Below, piece by piece: positions 21,074-31,493 of a stretch of DNA of 36,099 bases. Source of the stretch: Actinomycetota bacterium. Its GTDB lineage: Bacteria > Actinomycetota > Thermoleophilia > Gaiellales > Gaiellaceae. Below the pieces are notes generated by a model. It saw only the letters and a program-made list of their open reading frames with translations. It was not told the origin of the DNA and ran no database searches. The stretch spans positions 1 through 36,099 of the forward strand of contig VAXO01000048.1 of assembly GCA_005888435.1 (NCBI GenBank). The letters are read 5' to 3'. The position numbers were made by a program, and so were the translations under genes. Numbering within the stretch: position 1 is the first letter of the stretch; each line of letters opens with the position of its first letter.

Positions 21074-21715
21074 ATGATCAACCCGCTTCGCAGCGAGGCC
21101 GAAGCGTTCAGGTTCCTGATCGCGTCGATCGTCTACTTCGGAGCGATCGTGATCGCGGCGGTCGCGGGCGGCAAGTGGTGGGGCCTCGGCGTCTTCGTCG
21201 TGCTCAGCGTAGGGGTGCTGTGGTGGTGGCTTCGCTCCCGTCGTGACGAGCGACCGCGCCAGACGGCGCCGCGGCCGCATCCGGAAGGCGAGCGCCGGAT
21301 CCTCGTGGTCGCCAACGAAACGGTCGGCGGGCACACGCTGCGGTCGATGATCCTCGAGCGCAGCCTCGACGTCCGCGAGGAGGTGCTCGTCGTCACACCC
21401 GCGCTCAACTCGCCGCTGAAGCACTGGGTCTCGGACGAGGACGGTGCCCGTACCGCTGCGCAGGAACGACTCGACGAAAGCCTGGCGAAGCTCGCCGCGG
21501 CCGGCGTCGAGGCGCGCGGCGAGGTCGGCGACGGCGATCCGCTGCAGGCGATGGAGGACGCGCTCCGGACCTTCGGCGCCGACGAGATCATCATCTCGAC
21601 GCACCCGGAGGGGCGGTCGAACTGGCTCGAGCGGCGCGTCGTCGAGAAGGCACGCGAGCGCTTCGCCGTGCCGATCACGCACGTGGTGGTGGATCTGGAG
21701 CGCGAAGGGGTCTGA
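21074..21715 (+). CDS. Membrane-anchored Usp-like protein (two helices plus one module)
   Basis: A 213-residue protein. The N-terminal 58 residues form two membrane helices (FLIASIVYFGAIVIAAVAG and WGLGVFVVLSVGVLWWWL) with an RSRRDERPR stop-transfer stretch. The layout and length recall a small oxidase subunit IV (CtaF/CoxD-like). From residue 75 on comes a single soluble module of the same family as the gene at 19655: VVANETVGGHTL (Asn81), then IIISTHPEGRSNWLERRVVEKAR and ITHVVVDLE. So it looks like a fusion of a small oxidase-type anchor with a Usp-like domain. It is the last gene of the operon. Its stop codon is the TGA inside a GGGGTCTGACCCC repeat; the C-terminus ends Gly-Val because of that repeat. 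Function is unknown; association with the oxidase is inferred. Confidence 0.78.
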   Translation: MINPLRSEAEAFRFLIASIVYFGAIVIAAVAGGKWWGLGVFVVLSVGVLWWWLRSRRDERPRQTAPRPHPEGERRILVVANETVGGHTLRSMILERSLDVREEVLVVTPALNSPLKHWVSDEDGARTAAQERLDESLAKLAAAGVEARGEVGDGDPLQAMEDALRTFGADEIIISTHPEGRSNWLERRVVEKARERFAVPITHVVVDLEREGV

Positions 21716-21800
21716 CCCCCGAAGGGGGTCTGACCCCAGCAGTCGCACCTGGAGCTACGTCAGCAAAGGCTGGGGTCAGACCCCTTCGGGTTCAGACCCC
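21707..21800. repeat. Double palindrome of four GGGGTCTGACCCC units (REPIN-like), likely bidirectional terminator
   Basis: Units at 21707-21719 and 21725-21737 read GGGGTCTGACCCC. Units at 21772-21784 and 21788-21800 read GGGGTCAGACCCC and GGGTTCAGACCCC. The left pair is the reverse complement of the right pair apart from a few bases, with a 30-nt centre (21740-21769). Transcripts from either side could form a long stem. The TGA in the first unit stops the Usp-like gene and the TGA in the last unit (minus strand) stops the thioesterase gene. No T-run follows, so termination would depend on the stem. Confidence 0.85.
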
Positions 21801-22199
21801 GTAGAGGAGGAGTTGCGTGCAGCGGAAGAGCGCGAGTGTCTTGCCCTGCTCGTCGCTCACCGTCGCGTCCCACACCTGAGTCGTGCGGCCGCCGTGGAGG
21901 CGCCGCGACTCGGCGTGCAGCGTCCCCTCGAGCACGGTGGCGAGGAAGTTCGTCTTCAGCTCGATCGTCGTGAAGCCCGTCGCGCCGTCGGGAAGCGACG
22001 CGATGCAGCCGTAGCCGCACGCCGAGTCGGCCAGCGCGACGACGGTGCCCGCATGCAGATAGCCGTTCGGCGCCAGCAACTCCGGGCGCAACGGCAGCCG
22101 CATCCGTGCGTGGCCCTCCTCGATCGAGTCGATCTCGATCCCGAGCAGGCCCGGCAGGCGGCCACGCCCGGCCTCGACGAACGCCTGAAGATCCACCAC
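21792..22199 (-). CDS. PaaI-like hotdog-fold thioesterase
   Basis: Acyl-CoA thioesterase-like protein of 135 residues. The hotdog helix and strand are clear in APNGYLHAGTVVALADSACGYG, where the HAG-----AD pattern matches PaaI/YbgC-like enzymes (catalytic Asp expected near the AD pair). It is followed by TIELKTNFLATVLEGTLHAESRRLHGGRTTQVWDATVSDE. The likely substrate is an aromatic or medium-chain acyl-CoA, but nothing in the context fixes it. The start is GTG at 22199 or 22196; 22199 overlaps the cytochrome c stop by one base. It is the last gene of the tat-to-thioesterase operon and its stop is provided by a GGGGTCTGA repeat unit. Confidence 0.85.
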   Translation of the reverse strand: MVDLQAFVEAGRGRLPGLLGIEIDSIEEGHARMRLPLRPELLAPNGYLHAGTVVALADSACGYGCIASLPDGATGFTTIELKTNFLATVLEGTLHAESRRLHGGRTTQVWDATVSDEQGKTLALFRCTQLLLYGV

Positions 22200-29963: not shown

Positions 29964-30331
29964 TGCAGGTCGAACAGGTCGACTTCGTGTCCGTGCTGAC
30001 GCAGGACATCGCGCGCGCAAAGCAGTTCTACGGCGAGACGCTCGGGCTCCCGATCGAGACCGAGGGCGAGAACGACATGGAGTTCACGCTCGGCCAGGTG
30101 ACGCTCGATGTCTTCAACCCGGCGAGTGCCGGTCAGGAGTTCGCTGCAAGTCCGGCCGGGATCGCGATCCGCGTTCCCGACGTCGCCGCCGCGCGGGCAG
30201 AGCTCGAGGCCAAGGGCGTGCAGTTCGACGGCGAGATCGTGGACACCGGCGTCTGCCACTTCGCCTTCTTCAAGGATCCCGACGGCAACAAGCTGATGCT
30301 GCACCGGAGGTATGCACCACGTGAACGCTGA
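29963..30331 (+). CDS. VOC-family protein 2, inside the suf operon
   Basis: Paralogue of the preceding gene, 122 residues. It opens VDFVSVLTQDIARAKQFYGETLGLPI and ends HFAFFKDPDGNKLMLHRRYAP, the usual VOC closing motif. ATG at 29963 overlaps the previous stop (TGATG), and its 3' end overlaps sufD by 20 bp, so translation of both is probably linked to Suf production. It could dimerise with its neighbour, since VOC folds often pair. Chemistry is unknown. Confidence 0.85.
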   Translation: MQVEQVDFVSVLTQDIARAKQFYGETLGLPIETEGENDMEFTLGQVTLDVFNPASAGQEFAASPAGIAIRVPDVAAARAELEAKGVQFDGEIVDTGVCHFAFFKDPDGNKLMLHRRYAPRER

Positions 30332-31493
30332 GGCACTCGAGCGCTACCAGGCGCTGCCGCTTCCCGACACGACGCAGGAGCACTGGCGCTTCACCGACCT
30401 CCGCGGCTTCGACCCTGACGTTTTCAGCCGGGGTCAGACCCTTGCCGTTCAGGACGTGCCGGCAAAGACCATGCTCGAGCTCGACGTCGCGGGCTTGGCC
30501 ACGATCACCGAGAGCGGCATCAGCGTCGAGCGCGCACCCGACGGCATCACGTTCCAGCGGCTCGACGAAGGGCACGAGCGGCTCTACTCGCTGGTCGGCT
30601 GGGACGAGAAGTTCGCCGCGCACAACGCAGCCGTCTGGCAGCACGGGCTGCTCGTCCACGTCCCGAAGGGCGTCGAGCTCGACAAGCCGCTCTACGTCCG
30701 CATCACCAGCTCAGCGAACGAGTCGGCGCTCTTCTGGCGCCTACTCGTGATCGCCGATCCCGGCGCGCGCTTCACCCTCGTCGAGGAGGTCGTCTCGTCC
30801 AGGCCGGATCTGCACGCGTACACGAACGAGGCGGCCGAGCTCTTCGTGGGCGACGGCGCAAAGCTCGAGTACGTGTCGCTGCAGAACCTCTCGCGTGAAA
30901 CCTGGCACTTCGCGTCGCACCACGCGCGAGTCGAGCGCGACGCGGAGCTCGACTGGGTCGCCGGCGGCTTCGGCTCGAAGAAGGGGAAGGTGCGCATTCA
31001 GAACGACCTCGCCGGCGAGGGCGCCACGTCGCGCGTGACCGGCGCCTACTTCACAGACGGCGAGCAGCACCTCGACTACGACACCTTCCAGGAGCACATC
31101 GCGCCGAACACGACCTCCGACTTCGCGTTCAAAGGCGCATTGCGCGATCACTCGACGGCGGTATGGCGGGGGATGATCCGCGTCGAGCCCGACGCGCAGA
31201 AGACGAACGCGTACCAGGAGAACCGGAACCTGATGCTGTCGCCGACGACCCACGCGGTCCCGATCCCGGGCCTCGAGATCATGGCGAACGACGTCCGCTG
31301 CACGCACGGCGCGACCGTCGGACGCGTCGACCGCGAGCAGCTCTTCTACCTGATGGCGCGCGGCCTCACTCGCAGCGAAGCCGAGCGGCTGATCGTGCGC
31401 GGATTCTTCGAGGACGTGCTCGCGCGGGTCGAGCTCGAGCCGGTGCGCGAGGCGCTCGCAACCGCACTCGAGGCGCGCATCCCGCAGGGCTAA
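30312..31493 (+). CDS. sufD: Fe-S assembly protein SufD
   Basis: SufB paralogue that pairs with SufB and SufC. Of 393 residues, the N-terminus has the helical HWRFTDLRGFDPD segment typical of SufD. The beta-helix shows NAAVWQHGLLVHVPKGVELDKPLYV, LEYVSLQNLSRETWHFASHHARVERDA and NLMLSPTTHAVPIPGLEIMANDVRCTHGATVGRVDREQLFYLMARGL, with the conserved His in CTHGATVG. A GGGGTCAGACCC repeat unit (30430-30441) is translated within it as part of SRGQTLA. Start ATG 30312 or GTG 30321; both overlap the VOC gene. Confidence 0.94.
   Translation: MHHVNAEALERYQALPLPDTTQEHWRFTDLRGFDPDVFSRGQTLAVQDVPAKTMLELDVAGLATITESGISVERAPDGITFQRLDEGHERLYSLVGWDEKFAAHNAAVWQHGLLVHVPKGVELDKPLYVRITSSANESALFWRLLVIADPGARFTLVEEVVSSRPDLHAYTNEAAELFVGDGAKLEYVSLQNLSRETWHFASHHARVERDAELDWVAGGFGSKKGKVRIQNDLAGEGATSRVTGAYFTDGEQHLDYDTFQEHIAPNTTSDFAFKGALRDHSTAVWRGMIRVEPDAQKTNAYQENRNLMLSPTTHAVPIPGLEIMANDVRCTHGATVGRVDREQLFYLMARGLTRSEAERLIVRGFFEDVLARVELEPVREALATALEARIPQG
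30430..30441. repeat. GGGGTCAGACCC repeat unit inside sufD
   Basis: One copy of the 13-bp dispersed repeat (lacking the last C), lying in frame within codons for SRGQTL near residue 40 of SufD. It is read through and does not cause a stop because the TGA of the reverse orientation is on the other strand. Confidence 0.75.

Follow-up and report, generated by a model that had tools for sequence, protein, structure and literature searches.

A dispersed palindromic repeat supplies both stop codons of a convergent gene pair in a genome of the Gaiellaceae

The convergent junction and its palindromic element

The stretch of DNA analyzed in this work (the window) spans 36,099 nucleotides of a draft genome of the Gaiellaceae, and it harbors two convergent genes that end within the same palindromic element. 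On the plus strand, a CDS at 21074-21715 encodes a Usp-like protein of 213 aa with N-terminal hydrophobic stretches and the end ...VVVDLERE-GV*, while a minus-strand CDS at 21792-22199 encodes a thioesterase of the hotdog fold with the end ...RCTQLLLY-GV*. An earlier note on this DNA had named both products; the thioesterase assignment is solid (PF03061 and TIGR00369 matches), whereas support for Usp is weak, the PF00582 match (E 0.012) falling short of its cut-off.

The element (21707-21800, unstranded) is of a GGGGTC, REPIN-like type and contains, as the earlier note had described, four 13-nt palindromic units arranged as two inverted pairs. Units 1 (21707-21719) and 2 (21725-21737) are assigned to the minus strand and units 3 (21772-21784) and 4 (21788-21800) to the plus strand, an orientation read from their central bases, which are T and T, then A and A. 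Units 1 to 3 are exact copies of GGGGTCWGACCCC, the first of them reading GGGGTCAGACCCC on the minus strand, and unit 4 (GGGTTCAGACCCC) carries one mismatch. The centre (21738-21771) measures 34 nt, not the 30 nt first reported; it starts with AGCAGT and ends with AAAGGCT, which are foot tags of the family described below, and it is related to the centre of a decayed element, L107, with a score equalled in 0/5000 shuffles. The plus-strand TGA at 21713-21715, within unit 1, ends the Usp-like CDS and the minus-strand TGA at 21792-21794, within unit 4, ends the thioesterase CDS, so that the original reading of both stops, and of Gly-Val as the last residues of both proteins (...LEREGV* and ...LLLYGV*), holds.

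At up to 2 mismatches, the window contains 8 matches to the 13-nt motif, compared with 1.34 in shuffles. A second family element, a degenerate or shortened inverted GGGGTC pair with a spacing of 12, is located at 968-992 (unstranded) in the sole gap modelled as divergent, and is followed by another hairpin, agcctcaggcgcggacggcgcccgaggct. A single plus-strand unit, GGGGTCAGACCCT, lies at 30430-30442 inside the ORF at 30312-31493; it has family-like flanks (cagcc...ttgccgtt) and is apparently read through in the frame of that ORF.

A dispersed family at gene 3' ends

The genome of the window is a 2.45-Mb draft, 88.75% complete, in which the copies of the motif were analyzed within the stretches around them. 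It holds 97 exact copies, as opposed to 0 for a reversed control pattern, and inverted pairs are present among them; the frequency of the motif is hence above background, as the proposal of a repeat family in the earlier note had presupposed. These copies fall into 66 groups, or elements, with a common architecture. The design begins with AAAGGCT or AACTGCT as a foot tag; two palindromes follow, in most cases 3-5 nt apart, and in some elements the inverted tag comes last. The long inverted layout seen in the window (two units in one orientation, about 30 nt, two units in the other) has counterparts at L088 and L080, and a decayed one at L107. Several other elements show single inverted pairs, facing inwards or outwards, and in many the units are paired directly. 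A GT[AG]G tetranucleotide is found at the foot of the hairpin in only 2/194 unit feet, and AANNGC[TAC] tags at 57. At one locus of this genome (L097), GGGGTC units form an array with a 41-nt period.

Genes near the copies were called with a simple codon-usage model trained on the window, with which individual gene ends may be wrong. By these calls, 24 elements lie in convergent gaps, 23 in tandem gaps, 1 in a divergent gap and 11 inside predicted genes, with 7 unresolved. Circular genomes contain as many divergent as convergent gaps, and the 24:1 ratio therefore represents a strong bias (p 1.5e-6). The median distance from gene 3' end to element is 11 nt over 73 nearby ends. At 7 of these 73 ends the stop codon lies wholly within a unit, and at 6 more it has 1-2 bases in common with one, a TAG being completed by the first G of the unit. 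Since the stop lies in or overlaps a unit at 13/73 ends, stop donation is a common pattern, of which the window's two stops offer the neatest example. The termini of REPs have likewise been described as frequent providers of stop codons by Di Nocera et al. (2013, PMC3733652).

The junction in related genomes

The same junction was compared, as the earlier note had proposed, in eight genomes of the genus that carry the Usp-like gene, seven of which keep the convergent thioesterase gene. The conserved cores of the two proteins end in ...VVVDL(E/A)xE and ...RCTQLxLY, and the sequence beyond them varies among the orthologues. In G002 the stops are 1 nt apart and the tails, QQT* and LLLY*, occur without the repeat; the GGGGTC unit pair is also absent from the short gaps of G006, G007 and G008, and the 92-nt gap of G005 contains a partial GGGGTCAGACC. 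Because same-genus orthologues that lack the GGGGTC element have other tails, with no Gly-Val ends, the comparison indicates that an insertion most likely replaced both protein tails. A different and unrelated inverted palindrome pair, GTGGCTCWGAGCCAC, occupies this convergent gap in G004 (L119) and G009 (L122), and in the latter the TAG that ends the Usp-like gene is completed by a unit of this pair. The comparison also shows the gap to be a repeated landing place.

Turnover is evident on a wider scale too. The motif is patchily distributed, with 0-261 copies across 61 relatives and 0-108 within the genus, and among about 20 GGGGTC sites sampled in G004 only 4 match loci of the genome of the window. 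None of the sites compared was an empty one of sufficient sequence similarity to reveal the exact insertion point. The suggestion of an insertion at the gene ends that fixed new stops is supported by the other tails of element-free orthologues, by the dispersal of the copies and by the occurrence of the palindrome around Y1/RAYT-type genes in relatives (see below). The reading that we consider likely is that of a non-autonomous REP/REPIN-like repeat, dispersed in many copies, one of which inserted into a short convergent gap and there gave both genes their stops and Gly-Val tails.

RNA folding and termination

A competing explanation is that the palindromes were selected in place as a bidirectional terminator or an mRNA-stabilizing hairpin and that their spread as a repeat is secondary. 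Copies do concentrate at gene 3' ends, above all between convergent pairs, a different palindrome pair occupies the same junction in two relatives, and the RNA of the whole element folds into one long and very stable hairpin (-68.7 kcal/mol, z -5.8). Against this, the window element has neither a U-tract nor any terminator match, four same-genus orthologues have no such pair between the same genes, and the sequence of the copies is conserved far beyond the needs of a hairpin and is tied to a transposase family. We hence regard selection in place as rather unlikely, and the bidirectional terminator proposed in the earlier note, with a hairpin that carries no U-tract, stays a guess. A search of Rfam returned only eukaryotic microRNA matches, far below the gathering score, which were rejected as hairpin artefacts.

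Association with Y1 transposases

The earlier note had stated that no RAYT lies in the window, and nothing contradictory was found; the genome does contain one RAYT-like Y1 gene (PF01797; L016, 1413-1857, minus strand), which scores as a REP-associated tyrosine transposase (NCBIfam) with 95.3 bits against a cut-off of 80. Its upstream palindrome, present on the 5' side only, is CGTGCCTGGCACG, and the gene belongs to a supported clade of GTGCCAGGCAC type, not to a GGGGTC one. In L016 and its orthologues L049, L175 and L195, all with a flank palindrome on the 5' side only, the frame continues into a downstream regulator gene, presumably of the WYL type. These genes are conserved in the genus and are perhaps truncated or domesticated.

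A profile of the GGGGTC-flanked transposases detected no second Y1 gene in this genome. Nor was a GGGGTC-flanked transposase found in G004, a genome of the same genus in which, as in the draft analyzed here, there are about 100 copies of the motif and the only Y1 gene belongs to the GTGCCAGGCAC clade. The absence of a cognate transposase from the genome of the window is likely rather than proven, because the assembly is 88.75% complete: either the family is an orphan here or the ~11% of the genome that is missing encodes its transposase. Mobilization in trans by the resident L016-type enzyme could be envisaged, given that both genomes rich in copies yielded no other Y1 gene and that it exceeds the RAYT cut-off. 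We deem it improbable: orthologues in G001, G002, G007, G008 and G009 coexist with only 1-8 GGGGTC copies, and L016 has a one-sided palindrome of its own and a frame that enters the next gene.

The link between the repeats and a Y1 family emerges instead from the relatives. An identical 13-nt palindrome is found on both sides of the gene in 21/98 Y1 loci, compared with a mean of 2.4 and a maximum of 8 when flanks are re-paired, and in 8 of those 21 (L033, L038, L043, L046, L053, L170, L176 and L226) it is GGGGTCWGACCCC. GGGGTC copies are commoner in genomes with a GGGGTC-flanked Y1 gene, both against other Y1 holders (p 2e-4) and against all genomes (p 1e-5), values that are uncorrected for kinship. 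Mapped on a tree of the 65 transposases whose palindrome could be read, the type of palindrome switches 19 times, compared with 33.6 (minimum 27) after shuffling. Both-side flanks, copy-number excess and the agreement of type with the tree place the GGGGTC repeats with this Y1 family. In a wider scan of named genomes, just 2/80 Y1 relatives showed the both-side form, namely a Pseudoduganella with GGGGTCAGACCCT and a Thermoleophilia MAG with GGTGCC; such pairing consequently belongs for the most part to the order of the window and to a few others.

The Y1 loci of the relatives show some further variation. Palindromes at L021-L061 and L168-L227 include GGGGTC, GGGGAC, GGTGCC, GGTGTC, GGTGGC, AGGGAC and CGTGCC types, nearly all with a CWG centre, and directly upstream of the Y1 gene of L173 there are about 12 AGGGACTGTCCCT units at a 40-41-nt spacing. 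A helix-turn-helix domain scores above cut-off in L050 and L055 (HTH_38 in the latter), L176 and L057 give weak matches, and none was detected in L043, L170, L053, L046 and L033.

Discussion

The comparative analysis points to a likely sequence of events for the insertion of a mobile repeat. Paired, W-centred 13-nt palindromes with AAAGGCT or AACTGCT foot tags probably entered the short gap between the convergent genes, where the frames of the element supply both stops and Gly-Val stands in place of variable ancestral tails. As has been proposed for REPs, a HUH/Y1 transposase with GGGGTC flanks may have recognized the single-stranded hairpins and spread them. Copies would then persist mainly at gene 3' ends, presumably because insertion there breaks nothing, and, more tentatively, the strong hairpin might stabilize transcript ends or limit convergent read-through. 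That the palindromes are instead immobile binding sites for a dimeric regulator or a nucleoid- or chromosome-organizing protein, as about 100 copies of a near-perfect 13-nt palindrome of dimer-site form could suggest, is very improbable in view of the avoidance of divergent promoter gaps (1/48 classified intergenic pairs), the composite units with tags and spacers, the palindromes on both sides of transposase genes and the range of 0-108 copies within one genus. A methylation or restriction site was also considered, and the composite architecture and placement speak against it.

As a presumably mobile repeat, the family is a new example within the known kind of REP/TIR sequences with tyrosine transposases, and it is closest to the TIRYT/TIRtron repeats, without a GTAG tag. 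TIRYT/TIRtron systems are reported to consist of Y1 transposase genes flanked by inverted repeats that share GGGGWSAS, some of these TIRs being self-complementary and forming dispersed families of dimers (Di Nocera et al. 2013, PMC3733652; subclass 2.1 TnpA-Y1 in Quentin et al. 2018, PMC6006769). By inspection, GGGGTCAG fits this motif, and in the relatives Y1 genes stand between inverted repeats that share one sequence; for the C-terminal HTH domain of subclass 2.1 TnpA-Y1 the picture is mixed, with several GGGGTC-flanked proteins that have it and others that do not. The family differs in its short W-centred palindrome, its own foot tags, its ~100 copies and the lack of any GGGGTC-flanked transposase found in this genome. 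In S. maltophilia, a member of another phylum, the TIRs of ORF 1152 form a self-complementary family (PMC3733652) that may also be counted among the closest known systems.

With the GTAG REPs and REPINs of Pseudomonas and E. coli and their RAYTs (PMC3116915, PMC2817692), the family shares inverted palindrome pairs, intergenic placement at 3' ends and a RAYT-family transposase. It also shares the many dispersed short palindromic copies (97 in 66 groups). A cognate RAYT flanked by the repeat was found in relatives and not in the 88.75% complete draft. Unlike GTAG REPs, it has no GTAG/GTGG foot, and its stops are either a TGA within the palindrome or a TAG whose final G is the palindrome's first. 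The resemblance to REPINs drawn in the earlier note thus stands for inverted pairs, dispersal and 3'-end placement, but not for the foot or for a cognate RAYT in this genome. The element behaves as a REPIN does; with a GTAG-type tetranucleotide at only 2/194 feet, it is not to be classed among the GTAG REPs. A literature search on the motif returned only unrelated papers.

The donation of stops by this repeat family is thus a neat new example from the known world of palindromic repeats, and not a new kind. It nonetheless illustrates cleanly how mobile repeats edit the C-termini and stop codons of proteins, repeat-free orthologues being available for comparison, and it adds a lineage to those with transposase-linked palindromes, one not among the phyla named in the parts of the main surveys drawn on here. 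More generally, the 98 transposase loci with readable flank palindromes offer a direct route to testing how Y1 enzymes choose their hairpins. It is a tentative and less likely possibility that an order-level bacterial group has diversified CWG-centred 13-nt palindromes (GGGGTC, GGGGAC, GGTGCC, GGTGTC, GGTGGC and others), each matched to its own Y1 lineage; these would amount to a readable recognition code, with repeats that rewrite the 3' ends of genes as a matter of routine and with one family that may have outlived its transposase.
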